The notes below the pieces were generated by a model. It made no database searches. It saw nothing but the letters and a program-made list of their open reading frames with translations, and was not told the origin of the DNA. A DNA stretch of 31,219 nt, taken from IMG/VR virus record IMGVR_UViG_3300024999_001395, positions 1 through 31,219 of that record; one strand, given 5' to 3'. A program made the translations under genes and the position numbers. This document shows, piece after piece, positions 3,623 to 24,682 of the stretch (positions within the stretch are counted from its first letter, which is position 1; each line of letters opens with the position of its first letter). Origin of the DNA: a virus.

Positions 3623-5446
3623 TCAATTCCATGGTAGTTCTTCCTGCGCTGCTTTTTCTCTCTCAATAATTTCTTCCCAGCCATATTTTTTACGCTCGTT
3701 TGTGCTGCCATTAAAAAACCTCAATGTCTTCTGGCTAAAGTAGAACTTGAATACTTTGCGCTGCCCCACTTCCCGATCTTTTAGACTTGTTATGAGCGCA
3801 TCACACCCACCTTCGGTCCACACTCTTTCTACCGCAATTATGTTGTCTGCTTTATTTGGGATATTATTACTGCCGGATATGTCCGTTTTTTCGAGGTTCC
3901 CTTCTTCCCCGGTGAGTTCGCCTTTTATCTTGTTCGGATGGCATACCAGGACTATGTGTACTTTGTTATTAATAGCGAAAAACTTACACCTCTGAACGAA
4001 GTTCGCCTGATCGCTGTTTAGGCTATCCGCTTTCTCCTCAAGTTTTGACATTAGGTTATCAATGATGAATAGCTTTACTCCGTACTTTCTTGCAGCCAAC
4101 TCCATCAACTCAAAGAACTTGTCCAAGTCGTTTGCGACGTTTTCCTCTTTCCTGTCGAATAGGTAAAATAGTCCTTCGTGCCATTCCTTTATCCGCTTAA
4201 TGATCTCCGGCTTAATCACTTCAATGATTTTGTACTTGGTTTGTACTTGGTCCATGTACTCTTTTTTATTGCCTACTATTTGCTTATAAAGCCAATCTTG
4301 TATCTTGTATTCGCTCATTTCCCCTGAATAGAGGAACGTTTTAACTTGTCTCTCTATGCAATGGGCTATAACCTGACTAATAAAGGTTGTCTTACCTTCC
4401 CCATTCCTGCCGAATACAACGGTTAAATCTTTCTCTTTCCAATCCCCCACATAGCTGTCATAACCGTAAAAACCTGTCTCAATTCCATCATCTGCCGTTG
4501 CTGCGTACTCAACATGAGCCATATCTAACATTCCACTTGGCATTTCGTTTATTGCTCTCTGTATAGTTTCAAGAACCTTTTCTGGACCATGCTTATAAAG
4601 TACTTCGTTTGCATCTTTAAGTTTATCTGCCACAATCACTTTTACGTTTTTAAGTCGCGTCCTGATATTCTCTGCAAACTCTAGCCCCGGCTTATCATTG
4701 TCAGCCCAAACTATGATCTCTCGGCCCTTTAACCATTCCCAACAGGTTTCTATCCAGGTAAGGTTATTTGCTCCGCTTGGTGCGCTTACTACGTTGTGAT
4801 AGCCAGATTGCCATATTGCCATAGCATCGGGTTGGCCTTCCGTAATTAAAAGTGGTTTCCCCTTTTCAATATGGTCCATCCCCCATAGTAAAGGTTCTGT
4901 GTTTTTCTCACACCCTCCCTTGAATCCCCTCGCCCTAATCTCCCTATAGGTAACGTGTATTAATTCAGTGTCTTGTTCTCTGTAATATGGGAAAACATAG
5001 ACATTAGCTCCGTTCCACGTTGATTCCCTAACTCCCCACGCATCCAACGTATCCTTCGTTATCTTCCGTACTGCCATTAGATCAATTGCTTCCTGCGATA
5101 AGTCTCTGTACTTTATTTTAGGTAAGTCATATGCTTTCTTAACCGCTCGGTTACTCGGTGCGAATACGTTCAACTCTGTTTGTCCTGTTAAATCCATGAC
5201 TTTCTCCTTCGCTTGAATAAAACTCATGCCCTCAAATTCTGTGTAGTAGCGATAGATGTCGATCTTCTCTCCGCAAGCGTGACATCTCCACATAAGACCA
5301 TTCTTAAACCATGACATTGAAGGTGTTTTCTCTGAATGCAGAGGACAAAGGATCATGCCGGATTTATTAGGGCTAAGATTTAAGCCTGTTGATATGATCT
5401 CCCTTGCGCTCTGGCCTAGCAGTTCTTTTAGGTCCTTGCTTTCCAT
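3623..5446 (-). CDS. Bifunctional primase-helicase (T7 gp4 type)
   Basis: 607 residues. Order of domains: zinc-binding primase element (C34, H37, C55, C58), TOPRIM core (ITEGQPDA with E203, and WADND with D249 and D251), then a DnaB-like RecA fold with Walker A GRNGEGKT at 346-353, a Walker B-like LFIIDN and the H4-like VLVCHPNK. It should unwind the fork 5'-3' and lay lagging-strand primers, so no separate primase is needed. All key residues appear present. It directly follows the replisome organizer gene (stop TAG abuts the ATG). Together they form the lytic replication unit. Confidence 0.92.
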   Translation of the reverse strand: MESKDLKELLGQSAREIISTGLNLSPNKSGMILCPLHSEKTPSMSWFKNGLMWRCHACGEKIDIYRYYTEFEGMSFIQAKEKVMDLTGQTELNVFAPSNRAVKKAYDLPKIKYRDLSQEAIDLMAVRKITKDTLDAWGVRESTWNGANVYVFPYYREQDTELIHVTYREIRARGFKGGCEKNTEPLLWGMDHIEKGKPLLITEGQPDAMAIWQSGYHNVVSAPSGANNLTWIETCWEWLKGREIIVWADNDKPGLEFAENIRTRLKNVKVIVADKLKDANEVLYKHGPEKVLETIQRAINEMPSGMLDMAHVEYAATADDGIETGFYGYDSYVGDWKEKDLTVVFGRNGEGKTTFISQVIAHCIERQVKTFLYSGEMSEYKIQDWLYKQIVGNKKEYMDQVQTKYKIIEVIKPEIIKRIKEWHEGLFYLFDRKEENVANDLDKFFELMELAARKYGVKLFIIDNLMSKLEEKADSLNSDQANFVQRCKFFAINNKVHIVLVCHPNKIKGELTGEEGNLEKTDISGSNNIPNKADNIIAVERVWTEGGCDALITSLKDREVGQRKVFKFYFSQKTLRFFNGSTNERKKYGWEEIIEREKAAQEELPWN

Positions 5447-12865: not shown

Positions 12866-13009
12866 CTGTCCACATAATCCACAATCCACAACCAGTAAAG
12901 AATCTTTACCAGTAAACAATCTTTACCCGACCAGTAAAGAATCTTTACCCACAAGAAATACTATTACAAGATTTATCTTATTAATTATAAAAAACTAAGG
13001 TTGTCCACA
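12866..13009. other. Probable plasmid origin: iterons, DnaA-like boxes, AT-rich stretch
   Basis: Three 19-bp iterons of the form CCAGTAAAGAATCTTTACC (12892-12910; 12909-12927 with one change; 12931-12949), each with GTAAA/TTTAC dyad symmetry. DnaA-box-like 9-mers: CTGTCCACA (12866), TAATCCACA (12875), CAATCCACA (12882) and TTGTCCACA (13001). The interval about 12955-12997 is strongly AT-rich and suits strand opening. The set follows the initiator gene, as in theta plasmids. Confidence 0.75.
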
Positions 13010-14136: not shown

Positions 14137-14514
14137 TCACTCCCCCTCCTTATATATCCTTGGTTCAAACTCAAGCCCTGACCCTATTGCGCATCTAAGG
14201 CACACTATATTATTATCCATGGGTACAAAATACACTATCTTGTGTATTGGCATTCGACAACGTGGAGTTGCGCAAAAGAAAGGTTCTCCACATACCTGAC
14301 ATTGGGTTGTATAAACTCGCTTGAGAGTTATTGTTTCGGGTAGTTCATTTCCGTCCAAGTCCTTGTAATCGCTCATCTCCTCTACTCCTCCATCCCTTGC
14401 TTCTTCTATGATGATCCTCATCAATTCCGACTTTCCAGACAGACCTAGTTTTTTGGTTCGCTCAACTAGCCATTTTTCTTGATCCTCCGTAACATACAAA
14501 TCAATTCTTTTCAC
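14137..14514 (-). CDS. RHH repressor fused to a zinc-finger-like tail
   Basis: 125 residues. Residues 1-40 (KRIDLYVTEDQEKWLVERTKKLGLSGKSELMRIIIEEA) form a ribbon-helix-helix domain. The rest carries CQVCGEPFFC ... CRMP and a C-x2-C-like VCLRC, suggesting a bound zinc. Its promoter is near consensus with a perfect 8-bp inverted repeat in the spacer, so it very probably regulates itself and perhaps the divergent plasmid operon at 14650. Confidence 0.7.
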   Translation of the reverse strand: MKRIDLYVTEDQEKWLVERTKKLGLSGKSELMRIIIEEARDGGVEEMSDYKDLDGNELPETITLKRVYTTQCQVCGEPFFCATPRCRMPIHKIVYFVPMDNNIVCLRCAIGSGLEFEPRIYKEGE

Positions 14515-14541: not shown

Positions 14542-14570
14542 ATTATACACCAATACGGTGTATATGTCAA
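14542..14570 (-). promoter_or_regulatory. Consensus promoter of the RHH-zinc gene
   Basis: Minus strand: TTGACA (14570-14565), 17-bp spacer, TATAAT (14547-14542), both hexamers perfect. The inverted-repeat operator lies across the spacer. Confidence 0.85.
14544..14564. promoter_or_regulatory. Inverted-repeat operator
   Basis: TATACACC and GGTGTATA, perfect 8-bp arms with a 5-bp centre (AATAC), covering the core of the RHH-zinc promoter. The likely ligand is the RHH-zinc protein itself. Confidence 0.7.
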
Positions 14571-14649: not shown

Positions 14650-14838
14650 ATGCAGATCAAGGCATATCTACGAAAAAGGCATGACAGGGACATAAGGGAT
14701 GCTCTAGGACGTTTAAATCCAGAGGAGGGCCAACTGAGTGACATTGTTCGAGAGGGGGCTAGAATTGTCCTTAATAGGCTTGGAGTTATGGAAACAGTAG
14801 ATGATATAGAAACGGCAATTGAAAGGAGTGGTGAGTAA
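14650..14838 (+). CDS. RHH-like small plasmid protein
   Basis: 62 residues. IKAYLRKRHDRDIRDALGRL followed by LSDIVREGARIVLNRLG has the strand-helix-helix layout of ribbon-helix-helix proteins, as in plasmid copy-control or partition proteins. It begins a tightly packed plus-strand operon reaching 17666. The stop overlaps the next start (TAATG). It is a candidate binder of the CGACTAA repeats at 17784-17843; that link is only suggestive. Confidence 0.6.
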   Translation: MQIKAYLRKRHDRDIRDALGRLNPEEGQLSDIVREGARIVLNRLGVMETVDDIETAIERSGE

Positions 14839-15125
14839 TGGCAAACACATTGGGAACGTGTTTATCTGAAGATTGGGAGGTTATTGAGACTGATGTAAGG
14901 CTGCACATCCCTACTTTGTGGGAAATATCGTTAGATGCTAGGGAATTAAATGGAGGAGGAAGAAGGGTCGTCCTTCTAGATATGGGCTATCACAATTATG
15001 TTCTAGTCGGAAACATAGGGGATGATTTTGCGCTTGATGTCTATTATTCCACTGAGGATGAAGCTTACGAAGATATGGTGGGAGTATTCAACTCATTTGA
15101 TAAGGGTAATGTGGTTGAACTATGA
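14838..15125 (+). CDS. Hypothetical acidic protein of the translocase operon
   Basis: 95 residues, acidic, alternating beta strands and helices. The central GGRRVVLLDMGYHNYVLVGNIGDD looks like a beta-hairpin core. Start overlaps the RHH stop and its own stop overlaps the FtsK-like start (ATGA), so it is translated with them. No known family; it may be an adaptor of the translocase. Confidence 0.6.
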   Translation: MANTLGTCLSEDWEVIETDVRLHIPTLWEISLDARELNGGGRRVVLLDMGYHNYVLVGNIGDDFALDVYYSTEDEAYEDMVGVFNSFDKGNVVEL

Positions 15126-16243
15126 AGAAGCAGAATGTCGTTGAAGAGGTTCGGGATCAACTCAAATATCTATTCCTACACAGAAAAGGAAATGACGTTC
15201 ACGCAGCAGTACAGGACGTTATAGATGTACATTGGGCTAAGGACCCTAAACCTAAGATATTGAGGAAAATCAAACTATCGAAAGATGCTTATAAATTCAT
15301 CATAGCTTTGGGGGCCGGACTTGGGTATAAGGATTTCAAGAGCAAAGAACAGTTATTTGCTGATGCTATGGGGGGATGCGCGCAGATTGAAAAGAGAGGC
15401 AAGGTTATTATTATGCAAGCTTCAACTATTGAGATCAAGAAAGAGTACCCCTATTCCTTTGACCCCTCACAATTCAAGGGATACTTACCAGTTCATTTTG
15501 GTCATTCAAGTATTGGAGAGATCGTTAAAGACTTGGCTGATATGCCAAACTTAATTATTGCCGGGCATCCGGGGGCAGGTAAATCCAACTTCATCCATGG
15601 GTTAATCATGGGATTGCTACTTAATGAGAGAACCGACATAAGGACTGTAGTCTTTGATTTTAAAAGACTCGAGTATTCATATCTTCGGGATCATGTTTTA
15701 TTGGTCACACAAGAAGAAGAAGCATTAAAAGTCCTTGCTGCCATTAACAAGAATCTAGACGAACGACTCTATCTATTGGAATCTAGGGGATGTGTAAAGA
15801 TTCAGGATTACCTCGACCAAGGCCATTCCTTGCCATTTCTAGTCGTTGTGATTGATGAGTTGGCAGAAATGCACGATGAGGAATGCCAGACGGCCTTAAA
15901 TCGTATTCTACGCCTTGGGAGGGCAGCAGGGGTATGTGTTGTATGTGCCACTCAAAGACCAAGTTCCACAATGATGAAAGCGTTTGGAGATAGCAAGGCC
16001 ATGTTTAGTGGAACACTCTGTTTCCATGTCCGTGATGGTATCAATAGTCGTATGTTACTCGACAACGAAAACGCTAGTTTAATTCCATCAATCCCAGGTA
16101 GGGGAATTTATCAATGGGATACTGAGCTAGAAACTCAATCTATGTTTTTGCCAATTAAAAAGGCTAGGCAATTGCTCAAAACTATTGGCCGTGTTGAGGT
16201 GATGGTCTATGAACAACCTAGAAAGATGCTCAAGGCGCGATAA
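15122..16243 (+). CDS. FtsK/SpoIIIE-like DNA translocase ATPase
   Basis: 373 residues. Walker A GHPGAGKS at 148-155, Walker B VVVIDE at 241-246, the ATQRP sensor motif at 276-280 and the FtsK-type block FSGTLCFHVRDGINSRMLLD. No transmembrane N-terminus and no gamma (DNA-orienting) domain, so it is a soluble motor core like TcpA/TraB-type transfer ATPases rather than a chromosome segregator. It probably pumps double-stranded DNA, in this phage-plasmid either for transfer or for maintenance. It overlaps the replication-relaxation gene by 35 nt. Confidence 0.9.
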   Translation: MKKQNVVEEVRDQLKYLFLHRKGNDVHAAVQDVIDVHWAKDPKPKILRKIKLSKDAYKFIIALGAGLGYKDFKSKEQLFADAMGGCAQIEKRGKVIIMQASTIEIKKEYPYSFDPSQFKGYLPVHFGHSSIGEIVKDLADMPNLIIAGHPGAGKSNFIHGLIMGLLLNERTDIRTVVFDFKRLEYSYLRDHVLLVTQEEEALKVLAAINKNLDERLYLLESRGCVKIQDYLDQGHSLPFLVVVIDELAEMHDEECQTALNRILRLGRAAGVCVVCATQRPSSTMMKAFGDSKAMFSGTLCFHVRDGINSRMLLDNENASLIPSIPGRGIYQWDTELETQSMFLPIKKARQLLKTIGRVEVMVYEQPRKMLKAR

Positions 16244-16886
16244 AGAACTTTACAATTTACTTGAATCTCAAATAGCCTTAAATACAGATATGATTCAATT
16301 ATTGCTGTTTAAACGTAACTGTTTAAGGATAGTTCAAAGACGTTTAAAGAAGCTTTACGAAGGGGGAAAGATAAGCAGAGACAGGATGAGATTAAGTGAA
16401 CCATATTTTTATTATATGGACCGCAAACCCGGTCAAATAGATCATGTTTTAGGGGTATCGTGGGTTTATACATGGGTTGTCCTGTCGCTTTCTAGCATGG
16501 AAAAGGTACATTGTTTTGATAGGGAAGTGAAGGGATATAAAACGATAAGGCCGGATGCTTTCTTGGGAATTAAGAATCTATGGCAGGATGCTTATTATTT
16601 CTACTTTGTTGAACTGGATATTAGCAGGAGTGGGAATGACTTCGGGAAGAAGGTTAAGAAATACAACGATCTTTTTAATTCTGCCTCATACATGGGGTTG
16701 TGGTGGGTATCTCTTACTAAGAGGTTCCCGGCAATTATCGTGGTCACAACAGGGAGAGTTAAAACGATTAAGGAGAAAATTGAGAAGGAGAACGTAAATG
16801 GGTTGGAGTTTAGAGTGTATTCCTTAGATCAGATAAAGGAGGAATGTTTAAATGGTGCAAGCAGCAAGCGCAGCATTCGGACCTAG
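16209..16886 (+). CDS. Replication-relaxation family protein
   Basis: 225 residues. The N-terminus (RRDKELYNLLESQIALNTDMIQLLLFK ... VQRRLKKLYEGGKISR) is a winged-helix-like region; the middle and C-terminus contain PDAFLGIKN, YYFYFVELDISRSGNDFGKKVKKYNDLF and FPAIIVVTTGR, the pattern of the Replic_Relax family found on Gram-positive plasmids beside FtsK-like genes. PDxF and FVELD resemble a PD-(D/E)XK nuclease core, so it may nick or cleave DNA for the translocase. That catalytic idea is an inference. Confidence 0.7.
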   Translation: MNNLERCSRRDKELYNLLESQIALNTDMIQLLLFKRNCLRIVQRRLKKLYEGGKISRDRMRLSEPYFYYMDRKPGQIDHVLGVSWVYTWVVLSLSSMEKVHCFDREVKGYKTIRPDAFLGIKNLWQDAYYFYFVELDISRSGNDFGKKVKKYNDLFNSASYMGLWWVSLTKRFPAIIVVTTGRVKTIKEKIEKENVNGLEFRVYSLDQIKEECLNGASSKRSIRT

Positions 16887-17088
16887 TTCCCCGGGGTTTG
16901 TTATCTTGGTCTTGGTTATGTTAGGTGTCGGGTCATGGTTAGCGGAAATGATAACAGGTGCAGTTGGTAAGGGGCAGATTTCAGGCATGATTAGAACAGG
17001 CACTACGATTGCAGCTATTCTTTGCGTGATTAAGGTAGCGTGGCAATTACTCGCTAAATTCTTTGACTTTGCGGCAGGTAAATTGTGA
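16852..17088 (+). CDS. Small two-helix membrane protein
   Basis: 78 residues, AGGAGG 9 nt before the ATG. Two hydrophobic stretches (about 15-37, GFVILVLVMLGVGSWLAEMI; about 48-72, TGTTIAAILCVIKVAWQLL) separated by a Gly/Lys loop. It resembles small pore or pilin-like subunits (VirB2/TrbC-like size) or SpoIIIAC-like proteins, but there is no diagnostic motif. It lies between the relaxation gene and the M23 peptidase, consistent with forming a membrane channel. Confidence 0.6.
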   Translation: MVQAASAAFGPSSPGFVILVLVMLGVGSWLAEMITGAVGKGQISGMIRTGTTIAAILCVIKVAWQLLAKFFDFAAGKL

Positions 17089-17666
17089 GCAAATGGATTG
17101 CCGATCTCCTCCTTATTTCTGTTGTGTCGTTTGTTGGATATGTAATATTGGTTGGCTTTGAGCGTGAGCAGATTGCTAAACTGGTTGTTATGGTGGGGGT
17201 TATGTTAGGGTTATTAACTACAATGCAGGACTTAACACCTGTTGTAGAAAGGTGGTCGGCAAGGGTTGATTCTCTGCAAGACACAGCAAATAGAGTAACA
17301 AATATTGGTCAAGGTAGTTTTGAAACGCCAATGAATGGAGAGATAACGCAACTATTCAAAGGCGAACTACATCATGGGATCGACATAGGAGCAAATGAAG
17401 GAACTCCAGTAAAAGCATCTAAAGAAGGTGATGTTTCGTATGTAGGTTGGCATGATATCTATGGAAATATGGTTATCGTAGACCATGGGAAGGGGTTACA
17501 AACGGTTTATGCTCACCTTAAAGGGCTATCAGTTAAAGTTGGATATCCTGTGCTTGAAGGGGGTAAAATAGGGAGTTGTGGAACTACTGGAAGATCATCG
17601 GGTCCACATCTACATTTTGAGATACGGAAAAATGGTATATGCTTGGACCCATTATCATTTTTGTGA
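17085..17666 (+). CDS. Membrane-anchored M23 (LytM-type) peptidase
   Basis: 193 residues, GTG start overlapping the preceding stop. Two hydrophobic helices at about 5-24 and 30-46, a linker helix, then an M23 domain at about 80-190. Zinc ligands and catalytic residues are present: H97 and D100 (HHGID), H144 (AHL), H175 and H177 (PHLHFE). It should cut peptidoglycan cross-bridges from the outer face of the membrane. In this operon it could open a local path for DNA. The N-terminal helices recall SpoIIIAC/AD, and a LytM domain occurs in SpoIIQ. Confidence 0.88.
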   Translation: MSKWIADLLLISVVSFVGYVILVGFEREQIAKLVVMVGVMLGLLTTMQDLTPVVERWSARVDSLQDTANRVTNIGQGSFETPMNGEITQLFKGELHHGIDIGANEGTPVKASKEGDVSYVGWHDIYGNMVIVDHGKGLQTVYAHLKGLSVKVGYPVLEGGKIGSCGTTGRSSGPHLHFEIRKNGICLDPLSFL

Positions 17667-17667
17667 T

Positions 17668-17748
17668 TCCCACCCTTCTTCCCCCCCACCCCTTTGTCCC
17701 TTTGTAATCCCTTAATCCTCTCCCCCTTAACCCCTCTTTTTCTTGAGA
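17668..17748 (-). other. C/T-rich tract with G-quadruplex potential on the minus strand
   Basis: About 80 bases almost free of G on the plus strand, with at least seven runs of three to seven C. The complementary strand therefore has G runs that could fold into G-quadruplexes. It starts right after the M23 gene stop. Confidence 0.5.
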
Positions 17749-17783
17749 AATATCCTGTAGATATAGGCTTTATTGCTTGTACG

Positions 17784-17843
17784 TTAGTCGTTTATAACGA
17801 CTAAGTCAACGACTAAGTAAAGAACGACTAATGTAGCGACTAA
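17784..17843. repeat. CGACTAA repeat array
   Basis: TTAGTCGTT (17784-17792) faces AACGACTAA (17796-17804), a 9-bp inverted repeat. Further direct copies: AACGACTAA at 17808 and 17823, and AGCGACTAA at 17835. Starts are 12, 15 and 12 bp apart. Such arrays are typical of iterons, partition sites or oriT-binding sites. It is in the only gene-free stretch above 300 bases (17667-18146). Confidence 0.65.
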
Positions 17844-17865
17844 TTTGGACAAAATTGTTGAGTAT

Positions 17866-17912
17866 AAAAAAAATAAGCCCTGCCAACTTAAATGACAGGG
17901 CTGAACATTTTT
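17866..17912 (-). terminator. Strong terminator between late genes and plasmid operon
   Basis: AGCCCTG (17876-17882) pairs with CAGGGCT (17896-17902). On the minus strand eight T residues follow, ending the leftward RNA. On the plus strand TTTTT follows after a few bases, so it may also stop the M23 operon. Confidence 0.85.
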
Positions 17913-19233: not shown

Positions 19234-19512
19234 CTACCACTCCCTTACCACAGCCTTACTCTTGATAGACTCAATGGTGTCTGGTCCTATTCCTTTTACC
19301 TTATCTAATTCATATATGTCACGGTATGGCCTGCCGTCTATTATTCTCCCTGCCAATACTGGCCCTATGTCCGGCAATGAAATTAAAGCCTCCATACTTG
19401 CTGAATTGATGTCTATTTTTTCACATGTTCTTGCATAAAGAATAAGTAATGCTGTAAATAAAAAAACGATAGTCAGTATTCCGATTATTAATGGTGTATA
19501 ATCCTTTTTCAT
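19234..19512 (-). CDS. ComEA-like helix-hairpin-helix membrane protein
   Basis: 92 residues from the ATG at 19512 (GGGGTG 5 nt ahead; an upstream in-frame start at 19551 has no site). N-terminal membrane helix (LIIGILTIVFLFTALLILYA) followed by a tandem helix-hairpin-helix DNA-binding domain (INSASMEALISLPDIGPVLAGRII ... LDKVKGIGPDTIESIKS), as in the competence DNA receptor ComEA. Such a protein should bind DNA at the outer membrane face. Its place in a phage lysis cassette is unusual; a role in DNA entry or superinfection control is conceivable. Confidence 0.75.
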   Translation of the reverse strand: MKKDYTPLIIGILTIVFLFTALLILYARTCEKIDINSASMEALISLPDIGPVLAGRIIDGRPYRDIYELDKVKGIGPDTIESIKSKAVVREW

Positions 19513-19555
19513 AGCGCACCCCTTTTCAGGTAAAAAGAAGAAGAACATCAATTGC

Positions 19556-20040: not shown

Positions 20041-20055
20041 ACCCTCTCTTTTATT
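20029..20055. terminator. Bidirectional terminator
   Basis: GAGAGGG and CCCTCTC flank AATAAA; a T-rich run follows on the plus strand and the reverse holds for the minus strand. It ends the two-gene cassette and separates the ejection protein gene from it. Confidence 0.75.
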
Positions 20056-23000
20056 TTGCCTTAAATTTATCATTGGTTTCCTTGGCTAGTTTGAGCATTT
20101 GGATTTGATATGCCCTAATTCGTGATTCCTTTTCTTCCCTGGATAAATCGCTTGCTTGAATTCTATCGACTTCCTTGCGAATATCACTCAGTTTATCATT
20201 AGTCTTATTGAATAGCTTTTTGTACTGCTGCCCAACTTCTAACGATTTATCTCCTGTTGCCTTAGAATCACTTGCGCTAGTGTCTATCCTATTCTTGGTG
20301 GTGTAGAAATCGCCTAAAACATCACTTGAGAAAACAGGGTCCGCGGTGACTTGCTTCTTTAATGTTCCTGCTACACTTGCATTTTTGGTTAGTGCCGGGA
20401 TACCAAGTTGAGCAACTCCCCCTAAATAACTCTTTGCTAGGTAATCTATGTTTTGAGGTGATTTATTAATCGCTTTGCCTAACATCTTAGCAGGTTCGCT
20501 CGTTTTCTCGTCAAACTGCAAATAAGGGGATAACCGGGAAACGGAGCCGGAAACAATCGGTCTATCCATGAAATCCTTATTGGAACGAACGTCATTTAAT
20601 GGTGCAAGGATTGATCTCGTAGGGGGCATAAAGTTTGTTTTTACCGTCTCCATGAATCGGTTAAAAGCATCCGGGTCACTGTCTTGCCATTGCCTCATAG
20701 CTCTTTCAACCGAGCTCCCGAATATAACGCCAATCTCTCTAGGCTTAGGTATCTTCAGGAATGTTCCATTACTCTTTGGAATTAAGAAGTTATTATCCTT
20801 GATGTAATCGCTCAATTGTTGATAAGCAGGATTATTGTGGTTGAGTTGATACAACATGATTGAGGGGAATGTCACGGCAGTAAGGGCTTTAGCACTTGCT
20901 TGCACTGGATTATCAAGGAATGTCCTTCTAAACTTATCTATACCTTGCCAAGCTGCATTCAGGTAAGGCATGACGGAGTCCGCTTCTTTAATGATATTCC
21001 CTGTCCTGCTAAAGTTTGTTGTAACATCGTTCGCTTCGTATAGCCCTTTAATCTTACTAGAATAATCTCCGGCCTTAGAAATCCTCTTGAACTCTGCTAA
21101 TCTTGGGGCTGTTTCCACAGTATTGTTGAGTCTCTCCAATCCTCCTAATGCTGTCTTAAAAGGATGTTTTACGGCATAGCCGGGTAATAGTCTTGCTTTG
21201 CTTTCTGCTAGTGTATTGCGACTAGATGAAACTGAACTAGAGGCATAACCCCCACCCATAGCCTTGTAGGACTTATAAAGCTCTTTATTTCCTGCAACGT
21301 CAATGATTGATCCTAATAAGTCTTTACCAAATACAAAGGGATTGTTCGTACTCTTTGAGTTAATGTAGGCCGTTGGTATGTCTCTCCAAATATTACGAGC
21401 TAGGCCAAACATAGGGTTAATCCCGGTTGTTAAGTTCTTCATGACACTTGTTACTCTGCCGAGTGCTGCAATCACTATCTGTTGAGCTTGTGGTTTAAGG
21501 TTCGTTAGGGCATCAAGAAGAAGGGGATCGTTAACTTTTACGTGTACTTTTTCACCATCTATTAACCCGGTGACGATATTACCAAGATCAAGCCTTTGTT
21601 TTTTAGCATTAAAAACATCATCAAACTGTCGATTGAATGATTCTACAACTCCGTCGATACCATCCCTTTCAAGGACCTGGTTAATATCATCCATAAATCC
21701 TTGTCTAAGCTGTTTGTTATCCGGTATTACTTCGGCCCATCCCTTGAATTCTTCGGGGTTCTTCTTGAGATTGCGAATAATCGTTTGCATAACTTCGTTA
21801 CGTTTTGCAACTTTAACATACTGTTCCGTATGCTCCATGATAACTTCTAAAGGGCTTATGATTTGCCTTTGTGATCCGGTTCGAGCCTTAACCGGATTAG
21901 ATTGCCCTGCGAATCCTCTTTTTGTTCCGTTAAATGGAGTCTTTTCTAATTCGCTAAAGAATCTATTGTTGGGTACATAGTGGGGGTTTTCCGTGATCCA
22001 TTTGCCCCACGCTTCCGGCGATACAATTCCAGTATCAACCAACCATGCTTTACTTAATTTATTTTGGTACTCGTAAAGCTTAGTTGATAGCTCTTTGAAT
22101 TCAGGATGTATAGACTCATACTCCCTAACCTTGGCCTCTGACATTCCGGGGGTCATATTCATTTCGTCCGGGAATACCTTCTCGCCTAATTGCATCCTCG
22201 TAATAGCGTGTTTATTGACTAGATAATCATCAAACTCTTTTGCTACCTTTTTGTTTTTCAGCTTCTTTGTGATTGATTTCAATGAATCCCCGATTACCTC
22301 ACCCTTTGAGTTGACTAGATTTTCCTCTAGGATATGACTCGTTATGCTCCCGGTTCCTTTGCTGTTCAAGGCCAACATATAGGACTTATCTTGAGGGGAG
22401 AGTTTTTGTCCGGTTATACCTTCAACATACTTATCAAGTTGATTAAAACGGTGCAGGTTATCCGTTGTCTTGATATATGCGTTTGTCCTAATGGCTTCGG
22501 CATTAATAGGCTGCCTTTCAGTTCTCGTTACTATATGCTTTGCTGTGTCCGGTAACTCCGGGATGCTATTATTGAATGTTTGCAATCTCATGGGTATACG
22601 TGGTTCGATCACTTCATGAGCGAATCCGGCATTGTTCTCTGCTCTAGGCTGTTCTGCCGGAACTTCGCTACGAATAGGCTGTTGTTCTGGAATTTTATCC
22701 TTATTAGTCCACGTTAAACGCCCGGTGTTTTTAGTTTCCCTTGGTTTAAGGGGAACATTCAGTTTAGGTTTTGGTGGAGTGTTAGGGGGAAGTGTGCCGG
22801 ATAGGCTTAATATTTGTTGCTTTGCAACATCTCCACTAGTTAAACCCTGCTTCGTTAATGCCTTGAAGACATCTCCATTAGCTTCTTTGAATGCGGATAC
22901 AGGCATTGACCCTATTAACTTGTCTGCCTTAAACTCTGCCTCTAAACGGTGCGGTCCATCTCCCAAATACTTACCCTTGTAAATTGCTACGTTAGGATGT

Positions 23001-24682
23001 TCCCATCCTTCACGCTTCATCCATTCGATAAGCCTAGGAGCGTCCTTTAATTTAAATCCAGTAATACCGCTATGCGCTTCTGTACCAAGGCCCATATCTA
23101 TGCCTAATGGCCCTGATGGGGTGCTTTTACGCCCAGCTAAATCTTTACTAGGTGTCCGCACTGTTCGTATAAAGTAATCGTCACTCTTTGCCATTTCGTC
23201 GAAGTTTGTCTTAGTCAATGGCTTGGGGGGTAATTCTCTTCGTTTTAGTTTTGGCATAGTATCAAGCGTTCTTTTCCCAGGTAACTCACTCTTCAACATC
23301 TGCAACGTATTATCCAATGCCGAATATTCAGGGTCCCTCAATGCCAAAGCTTCGGCCTCTGCTCGATAATTTTTTGGCTTATAAGCAGAATCACTAATGG
23401 CTGCTAACAATTCGTCACTCGACATACCTAATGTATCGGAAACCTCGTCCAGTGGCCGCCCGGCGCGGTCATTGCGAATCCAATTTGGTATAACCTTGCG
23501 TTCCTCAAATATCCCATCGTTTGCCTGCTTAATGCCGCCCATATCCTTGATCTTCTTGCGAATAGACCCTATAGGCGTTTGCTCATCGGCTTGCTTTATC
23601 ATGGTTTCGATATCGTCAACTTGCTTATTCATCCGGGTAGTAATCTCTTCGATATCGGTATTCTTGCGATAAGACTTAATAGGTTTGCCAAACGCATCTA
23701 AGCCCTCATATTTAGTACGCTTACCAATACCTAAAGAATTATCAATCCCCTCCTGCAATGTTTTGCGTGCCATAGGCGTATCTACAGAGCCTATAGGAAG
23801 GTTTTTAAATACCTTATTTAACTCCGATTGCCTTAATTCATAAGCTCGTTGTTGTGGTGTTGTGGTGCTTTTGATTTTATAGTTTGGACTTGGTTGTTTT
23901 TGAGCTAATAGATTTGTTTGGGCATCCATCTTGGTAATAGGATTTCGGTAAGCGTTTTGAATATCATCAAGGGGATTTGATTTCATTTCTGGTAGTTTTG
24001 TCAGCTTGTTAAATTTAGAATAGTCAATTCCGGTCTTAGCTCCCCTTAAAGCTAATTGTCCTGCGCCATGTAAAACAGTACCACCCAACGCCATTAATGG
24101 GGCTTCTTTGACTCTCTCTGCGAATCCTTCTGCGCCATCCTTATTCATGGCAGTTTCTAATGCGTTGATTGGTAGTCCGTAGGTTGTCCCTGCTCTTACA
24201 CCTGTTCCCAATGCAGGGGTTAATGCTTTTGGCAAAAGTCCTGTTGCCCTAGAGATAGGTGCAGTTTTCGCCAATGCTCCTAGGGGTTTAGCTAGTAGCG
24301 CATCCCCCCCGATCCATAAAGGAAGATCCGCAACCATCCCACTACCAAACGAGAGAGCTTTTTGCCCGAATGTTTCAGGTTCAGGAAGAGTGGAGAGGTC
24401 CACCTTCCTCCCTGTTATCTTCTCGGCTAGTGGCGTTAATGCTCTCCCTGTTAGTGATCCAAGAGTACCTTTAATGAACGCACTTTTGTAGTCTGGTGCG
24501 GATTTCGCAAGAGCATGAGAGGGCATAAGTTGGTTGGTCGAAAATGACATAGGGGGAGATTTAACAGGGGTAGTAAAGACAGGTGCAGGGTTAATATATT
24601 CAATGTTCTCTTTGGCAAGTTTAGCTTTTTCTTCAAATGGGTTTTTATATTTAGATCCACGAGGATTGAGCCACATAGTCAT
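20051..24682 (-). CDS. Giant internal virion / DNA ejection protein
   Basis: 1543 residues. A variable Pro-rich N-terminus, a hydrophobic Gly/Ala/Leu segment (about 100-210), then long helical and mixed regions. A block near residue 1090 (SVMKNLTTGINPMFGLARNIWRDI) looks like the large-polyvalent-protein LPD38 type common in podovirus ejection proteins, and the C-terminus is coiled coil (LSDIRKEVDRIQAS ...). Such proteins leave the capsid with the DNA and form a conduit through the envelope, comparable in role to T7 gp16. GGGGG precedes the ATG. No lytic transglycosylase motif was seen. Confidence 0.75.
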   Translation of the reverse strand: MTMWLNPRGSKYKNPFEEKAKLAKENIEYINPAPVFTTPVKSPPMSFSTNQLMPSHALAKSAPDYKSAFIKGTLGSLTGRALTPLAEKITGRKVDLSTLPEPETFGQKALSFGSGMVADLPLWIGGDALLAKPLGALAKTAPISRATGLLPKALTPALGTGVRAGTTYGLPINALETAMNKDGAEGFAERVKEAPLMALGGTVLHGAGQLALRGAKTGIDYSKFNKLTKLPEMKSNPLDDIQNAYRNPITKMDAQTNLLAQKQPSPNYKIKSTTTPQQRAYELRQSELNKVFKNLPIGSVDTPMARKTLQEGIDNSLGIGKRTKYEGLDAFGKPIKSYRKNTDIEEITTRMNKQVDDIETMIKQADEQTPIGSIRKKIKDMGGIKQANDGIFEERKVIPNWIRNDRAGRPLDEVSDTLGMSSDELLAAISDSAYKPKNYRAEAEALALRDPEYSALDNTLQMLKSELPGKRTLDTMPKLKRRELPPKPLTKTNFDEMAKSDDYFIRTVRTPSKDLAGRKSTPSGPLGIDMGLGTEAHSGITGFKLKDAPRLIEWMKREGWEHPNVAIYKGKYLGDGPHRLEAEFKADKLIGSMPVSAFKEANGDVFKALTKQGLTSGDVAKQQILSLSGTLPPNTPPKPKLNVPLKPRETKNTGRLTWTNKDKIPEQQPIRSEVPAEQPRAENNAGFAHEVIEPRIPMRLQTFNNSIPELPDTAKHIVTRTERQPINAEAIRTNAYIKTTDNLHRFNQLDKYVEGITGQKLSPQDKSYMLALNSKGTGSITSHILEENLVNSKGEVIGDSLKSITKKLKNKKVAKEFDDYLVNKHAITRMQLGEKVFPDEMNMTPGMSEAKVREYESIHPEFKELSTKLYEYQNKLSKAWLVDTGIVSPEAWGKWITENPHYVPNNRFFSELEKTPFNGTKRGFAGQSNPVKARTGSQRQIISPLEVIMEHTEQYVKVAKRNEVMQTIIRNLKKNPEEFKGWAEVIPDNKQLRQGFMDDINQVLERDGIDGVVESFNRQFDDVFNAKKQRLDLGNIVTGLIDGEKVHVKVNDPLLLDALTNLKPQAQQIVIAALGRVTSVMKNLTTGINPMFGLARNIWRDIPTAYINSKSTNNPFVFGKDLLGSIIDVAGNKELYKSYKAMGGGYASSSVSSSRNTLAESKARLLPGYAVKHPFKTALGGLERLNNTVETAPRLAEFKRISKAGDYSSKIKGLYEANDVTTNFSRTGNIIKEADSVMPYLNAAWQGIDKFRRTFLDNPVQASAKALTAVTFPSIMLYQLNHNNPAYQQLSDYIKDNNFLIPKSNGTFLKIPKPREIGVIFGSSVERAMRQWQDSDPDAFNRFMETVKTNFMPPTRSILAPLNDVRSNKDFMDRPIVSGSVSRLSPYLQFDEKTSEPAKMLGKAINKSPQNIDYLAKSYLGGVAQLGIPALTKNASVAGTLKKQVTADPVFSSDVLGDFYTTKNRIDTSASDSKATGDKSLEVGQQYKKLFNKTNDKLSDIRKEVDRIQASDLSREEKESRIRAYQIQMLKLAKETNDKFKAK

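Follow-up and report, generated by a model that had tools for sequence, protein, structure and literature searches.

Relaxases of the MOBC family are related to PD-(D/E)XK enzymes, and for their prototype, TraX of pAD1, binding to five direct repeats of the origin of transfer (oriT) has been reported (PMC12857230). A survey of mobilizable elements in streptococci lists the Pfam family PF13814 (Replic_Relax) as the MobC relaxase superfamily (PMC5357655, Table 1 therein), and in streptococcal integrative and mobilizable elements (IMEs) a non-canonical relaxase is preceded by TcpA, an FtsK-like protein (PMC5357655). Systems of TraB type transfer double-stranded DNA and do without a relaxase (PMC3218068). 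Here we describe a block of six genes (positions 14650-17666) and a noncoding site behind it in IMG/VR record IMGVR_UViG_3300024999_001395, which belongs to a virus of Desulfosporosinus-like bacteria. The window analysed is the complete virus record of 31,219 bases, which is classed as linear and is therefore probably a fragment. Judged from sequence comparisons, the block is best explained as a compact DNA-processing and DNA-pumping module found mainly on temperate phages, since a relaxase-family nuclease, a ribbon-helix-helix (RHH) protein, a repeat-bearing site, a coupling-type motor and membrane partners, all in one operon, point to a device that would load DNA and take it across a membrane. 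The individual parts are of known kinds and the novelty lies in their combination: SpoIIIAC/AD-like proteins together with an M23 fusion, an oriT-like site and temperate phages were not found in the open-access papers searched.

A preliminary description of this sequence had placed six overlapping open reading frames (ORFs) in the block, and all of them are present on the + strand, with successive overlaps of 1, 4, 35, 35 and 4 bases (Table 1). Its gene assignments also stand: Pfam recognised three of the six products (FtsK_SpoIIIE, Replic_Relax and Peptidase_M23) and gave no family for the 62-, 95- and 78-residue proteins, the first of which is identified as an RHH protein by its motif and its relatives and is a probable relaxosome accessory DNA-binding protein. 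The proposal had been made to depend on co-conservation of the gene set on other elements, and this was found. The core order, RHH protein, FtsK-like motor, Replic_Relax, 78-residue two-helix protein and two-helix/M23 protein, is kept in phages and chromosomes of Desulfitobacteriia, and the operon is not a chance assembly, because the order of four genes recurs in every close relative. The acidic 95-residue protein, previously counted as a member, had no relative in any fetched locus and lies outside the conserved unit.

Both IMG/VR contigs and Desulfosporosinus-like genomes yielded relatives; a nucleotide search of phages gave no match. By profile search, Replic_Relax occurred in 16 of 83 genomes of the Desulfosporosinus-like class, and in nearly all loci of those 16 genomes an FtsK-like motor was encoded directly upstream of it. 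The order in the close clade was FtsK, Replic_Relax, 78-residue protein and two-helix protein, with an M23 domain on the last in many lineages. Most contexts of the module are temperate phages: some relatives encode integrases, and translations inspected by eye placed the module beside lysis genes or an integrase in L048, L125, L130, L136, G005, G007 and G008. No phage structural genes were seen near it in two chromosomal loci (L126 and L128). The idea that the record is a phage-plasmid is not supported as it was put forward, in view of the fragmentary nature of the record and of the integrases of some relatives. Phages and plasmids of Bacillus, Geobacillus, Paenibacillus and Priestia likewise have FtsK and replication-relaxation genes as a pair, which either follows the lysis cassette or neighbours genes for integrase or partition functions, and in the Bacillus-type modules examined a small protein, nearly always with two predicted transmembrane (TM) segments, is encoded directly upstream of FtsK. 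Those of GBSV1, SpaA1, 268TH007 and pLW1071 (Bacillus/Geobacillus) share with the window the pair, often in a post-lysis position, and an adjoining two-helix protein, but have no M23 protein and no detected site of the Desulfosporosinus type. We found no role assigned to this pair, recurrent as it is in Bacillota phages and plasmids, and no description of its function in Bacillus or Geobacillus. As a separate observation, a similar-looking secreted protein with hydrophobic N- and C-terminal segments, a possible surface partner, is encoded after several distant modules (L129 10965-11696, L130 6232-6948, L135 8494-9015 and L136 6464-7114).

On the basis of its Pfam match, the Replic_Relax protein belongs to the MOBC relaxase family (PF13814), and its nicking activity is predicted. 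The same profile recognises the replication-relaxation protein of pTEF1, a plasmid typed MOBC, at 28.5 bits, above the cut-off; we take this protein to be the counterpart of TraX. An AlphaFold model of Replic_Relax, of moderate quality (predicted local distance difference test score, pLDDT, 64.5), has the core order a-b-b-b-a-b, and its top Foldseek matches, individually weak (best E 0.055), were the nicking or restriction endonucleases Nt.BspD6I, EcoT38I and MunI. Of 32 diverse relatives, 31-32 retain each of the residues E106, D116, E135, K148 and Y152. Predicted fold and near-invariant residues thus agree with the PD-(D/E)XK core that had been suggested, and we regard such a core as predicted. 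Among sequences of solved structures the protein found chance matches only, and two direct collection searches gave five Geobacillus phage matches and no plasmid match. A role as replication initiator was given low weight: the phage has initiator, helicase and primase genes of its own and therefore does not need Replic_Relax for this purpose.

Behind the operon, outside the coordinates of the preliminary description and not mentioned there, is a conserved site that by its anatomy looks like an oriT. In the window it comprises a CCCCTCTTTTTC box, a GCTTGTAC box at 17775-17782, an inverted repeat (TTAGTCG at 17784-17790 and CGACTAA at 17798-17804) and direct repeats at 17798, 17810, 17825 and 17837. 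The site was present in 14 loci, which share a CCCTCTTTTTC box, TTTTAGCTTGTAC (in changed form in L128), the inverted repeat and four direct repeats, in most cases at a spacing of 12 bp, and the window and its relatives are 52-66% identical over it despite differing downstream genes. It is upstream of FtsK in L130, and in L036 it is retained beyond an inserted gene that separates it from the operon; this gene (L036 ~1930-2890, between the M23 gene and the site) has the appearance of an HNH endonuclease. The repeats co-vary within a locus (CGACTAA, CGACCAA, CGACCGA or TTGACCA), as would binding sites that track their protein, binding being predicted here. A structured scan for the site pattern found almost nothing in shuffled sequence, and a sequence model of the site, run over the 83 genomes, detected beyond the training loci two modules (G022, at FtsK, and G067, directly behind Replic_Relax) and three places other than modules. 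Covariation of the dyad arms was suggestive only, and a dyad of protein-binding sites explains it equally well. In pTEF1, five direct repeats exactly 12 bp apart occupy an intergenic region beside the traX-type gene, and this parallel, together with the conserved repeat site, gives the relaxosome reading its strongest new support. The window thus resembles the MOBC systems of pAD1 (TraX) and pTEF1 in a PF13814 match above the cut-off, a core of PD-(D/E)XK type (predicted here) and 12-bp-spaced repeats beside the operon. It differs from them in that its protein is very distant in sequence and carried by a temperate phage, a dyad is created by inversion of one repeat, and the motor is of FtsK type, whereas pTEF1 has a protein with a TraM-recognition domain. 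A GCTTGTA box near Bacillus modules was not used, its matches being scattered and several of them within genes. The site model also matched other arrays of ~12-bp repeats with no module adjoining (L203 ~4820-4960 and L204 ~1760-1860).

The motor has intact Walker motifs, as had been reported (A, GHPGAGKSN; B, VVVIDELAE). Among sequences of solved structures it matched 6o1w-6o1z, deposited as a DNA translocase coupling protein (E 1e-28), which we take to be TcpA of pCW3, and FtsK (E 9e-28); it matches TcpA and FtsK about equally and is assignable to neither. Hydropathy disclosed no TM segment in close motor relatives, and none is apparent in the window motor; its AlphaFold model (pLDDT 53.6) was too poor and was not used. 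The motor gene stands directly upstream of that for a relaxase-family protein, as in the streptococcal IME pairs, and its best solved-sequence match is the coupling protein. The window departs from TcpA and the IME pairs in three respects: the motor is without the TM segment that TcpA and FtsK have, the relaxase is of MOBC type instead of the commoner rolling-circle-replication-initiator or tyrosine-recombinase types, and its records are without a type IV secretion system (T4SS) signature. With TraB and the actinomycete integrative and conjugative elements of Streptomyces it shares one FtsK-like motor for DNA movement and the lack of a T4SS, although the motor scored 52.8 bits with the NCBIfam TraB model, against a cut-off of 800.

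The 78-residue and M23 proteins have two TM segments each (hydropathy on relatives), and the M23 zinc ligands are intact in the window (H96/D100 and H175xH177), as previously noted. In profile comparisons, the membrane domain of the M23 protein matched SpoIIIAC (P 2.6e-4) and the 78-residue protein matched that membrane domain (P 1.8e-4), against controls of P 0.28-0.49; the direct match of the 78-residue protein to SpoIIIAC was weak (P 0.037). The two-TM domain of the M23 protein is therefore a probable paralogue of the 78-residue protein and SpoIIIAC-like. The window proteins themselves did not match PF06686 (SpoIIIAC/AD), and one relative did so below the cut-off (E 0.004); when ten module-bearing genomes were scanned whole, two of the seven below-cut-off matches fell in the module. 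The Thermoanaerobacterium plasmid pMU3262 carries, two genes upstream of its FtsK and replication-relaxation pair, a two-TM protein annotated SpoIIIAC/SpoIIIAD that does exceed the cut-off (49.8 bits, E 4e-13). The membrane parts of the module are thus probably SpoIIIAC/AD-like, the window proteins being without formal membership. Likeness to the SpoIIIAC/AD and SpoIIQ channel extends to the M23 fold and to the FtsK/SpoIIIE-type motor, but the other SpoIIIA parts were not seen in the operon, and the M23 protein showed no specific affinity to SpoIIQ (NF053738, 64.2 bits against a cut-off of 250), so that it was not considered an orthologue. The 78-residue protein was also tried as a TrbC/VirB2 pilin and rejected, as PF04956 gave no match at the module in the ten genomes; an ATP-synthase c control scan likewise gave none at modules. 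In L124, L126, L127 and L139 the second two-helix protein ends before the M23 domain, and in L003 and L036 the canonical first zinc-binding His is Asn. The peptidase, which had been thought essential, is a favoured add-on and not part of the core.

Table 1. Features of the operon and its surroundings in the window
Feature	Position	Strand	Basis or remark
Divergent RHH/CopG-type protein	14137..14514	-	Translation; position parallels XRE genes of Bacillus relatives
Palindrome ATACACC-AATAC-GGTGTAT, divergent promoter region	14545..14563		Sequence
RHH protein, 62 aa	14650..14838	+	RHH motif; correspondingly placed relatives of 47-49% identity upstream of FtsK
Acidic protein, 95 aa	14838..15125	+	ORF translation
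FtsK/SpoIIIE-type ATPase, 373 aa	15122..16243	+	Pfam FtsK_SpoIIIE, E 6e-20
Replic_Relax protein, 225 aa	16209..16886	+	PF13814, E 5e-7, 30.3 bits (cut-off 25.3)
Two-TM protein, 78 aa; distant SpoIIIAC/AD-like candidate	16852..17088	+	Hydropathy of relatives; profile comparison
Two-TM domain fused to M23 peptidase, 193 aa, GTG start	17085..17666	+	Peptidase_M23, E 1e-33
Conserved noncoding cis site, oriT-like (~120 bp)	17725..17853	+	Comparison of loci
Terminator-like hairpin	17876..17902	-	Consensus match only

Considering these parts together, we propose that the winged-helix-like N-terminal part of Replic_Relax would, with the RHH protein, bind the repeats of the cis site, and that its PD-(D/E)XK domain would nick the DNA of the element close to the GCTTGTAC box, in the manner of MOBC relaxases. 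Family membership, the predicted fold and the anatomy of the site support these two steps. The DNA would then be taken by a hexamer of FtsK/TcpA type, without TM segments and docked on a ring or pore of two-helix proteins, for which the fixed gene association provides support. Such docking of the motor on the small membrane protein had been suggested before and gains, by analogy, from the two-TM protein that adjoins FtsK in Bacillus-type modules. Where present, the M23 domain may open the wall locally, and the element DNA could leave the lysogen for a neighbouring cell without lysis. We give about an even chance to export of element DNA towards another cell, with or without a helper pore. A more ambitious form, in which a MOBC relaxase with its own oriT, a TM-less motor, a SpoIIIAC/AD-like pore and a built-in hydrolase would make up a self-sufficient, T4SS-free exporter and prophages would spread by contact as well as in virions, is possible, if doubtful. 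The minimal DNA-transfer apparatus put forward in the preliminary description is thus strengthened on the DNA-processing side by the oriT-like site and MOBC membership and weakened as to completeness, there being no VirB4 signature; a helper pore may still be needed. The MOBC placement, the oriT-like site and a partner of SpoIIIAC/AD kind make the pair a testable DNA-translocation system. If lysogens were to use the module to transfer DNA on contact, many elements at present classed as non-mobilizable would be mobile, and the boundary between phages and conjugative elements would shift.

Several results weigh against export. The individual fold matches of Replic_Relax are weak and its model moderate, and no significant similarity emerged when its profile was compared directly with the pTEF1 protein alone. 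FtsK is as close to the motor as the coupling protein is, and relatives dispense with M23. An orphan copy of the site (L202 5230-5420; G046:C40:30292-30370; E 2.8e-7) has no FtsK or Replic_Relax gene within the 8.4 kb fetched around it, and the site model found no site in Bacillus relatives. VirB4 (PF12846) gave no match over the cut-off in the window and 11 related records, all of them fragments. Finally, pLW1071 (L182) carries the pair beside a separate MOBQ relaxase and mating apparatus (PLSDB typing), an arrangement that fits a non-conjugative role too.

The lack of VirB4 matches would also be expected if the element had only the DNA-processing half (RHH protein, motor, MOBC relaxase and oriT) and were mobilised through the pore of a co-resident conjugative element, as the IMEs with their TcpA-relaxase pairs are, the membrane and M23 parts assisting docking to the foreign pore. 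We consider this unlikely, since modules are hardly ever without the two-helix proteins and have in M23 a wall enzyme of their own, whereas PMC5357655 defines its IME modules solely by relaxase and coupling protein; moreover, the module stands away from phage genes in the chromosomes of L126 and L128, where a helper was not looked for. The equal nearness of the motor to FtsK and the SpoIIIAC/AD similarity of the membrane parts bring in segregation: an anchored motor might pump the DNA of a phage or plasmid through the division septum or into the forespore and so preserve the plasmid or the lysogenic state during sporulation, the cis site being a loading site instead of an oriT. Most carriers belong to spore-forming genera, RHH proteins and repeats also form partition complexes, and plasmid-borne pairs adjoin ParM, as in pLW1071, typed conjugative, where the neighbours are CopG and ParM genes. 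However, integrated prophages carry the module with no need of segregation, the relaxase-related nuclease is left unexplained and the M23 domain is not specifically SpoIIQ-like, and we hold this reading to be quite unlikely. That Replic_Relax is a replication nickase or a cleaver of incoming DNA, with motor and membrane proteins countering superinfecting phages at the envelope, is improbable: the module does sit where phage accessory genes sit, between lysis genes and integrase or repressor, and some PHROG matches are named replication initiation, but PADLOC models gave only generic P-loop ATPase matches and no defence system, exclusion would not be expected to involve a conserved cis site on the element's own DNA, and the phage already encodes a replisome organizer and a primase-helicase.

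Compared with its surroundings, the operon is a stand-alone + strand unit with a divergent RHH-type gene of its own, whose product, judged by position, is likely the operon repressor, replacing the XRE repressor of Bacillus relatives. A promoter scan found a perfect sigma-70 promoter on the - strand at 14570-14542 (12/12 consensus match), and the hairpin at the other end, on the opposite strand, suggests that the cis site lies between convergent transcription units. To the left, the - strand encodes primase-helicase, replisome organizer, single-stranded DNA-binding, Gam-like and resolvase proteins; to the right, also on the - strand, are tail-type proteins, large polyvalent proteins and lysis genes. 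Neither head genes nor an integrase were recognised among the scanned ORFs of the window, a probable fragment, some relatives of which have integrases. A cell-wall-binding-repeat-like surface protein is encoded ~2 kb from the orphan site of L202, and another follows the module in L124. Beside the lysis genes of the window, a small protein (19234-19551, by eye) combines an N-terminal TM segment with a ComEA-like helix-hairpin-helix, and positions 20051-24682 encode a 1543-residue protein with a large polyvalent protein domain (LPD38). At 12891-12949, between Rep_O-like and MerR-like genes, three near-identical palindromic repeats (ACCAGTAAAGAATCTTTACC) form a possible plasmid-type origin or partition site, and a similar Rep_O-like/MerR-like gene pair adjoins the module in L084.

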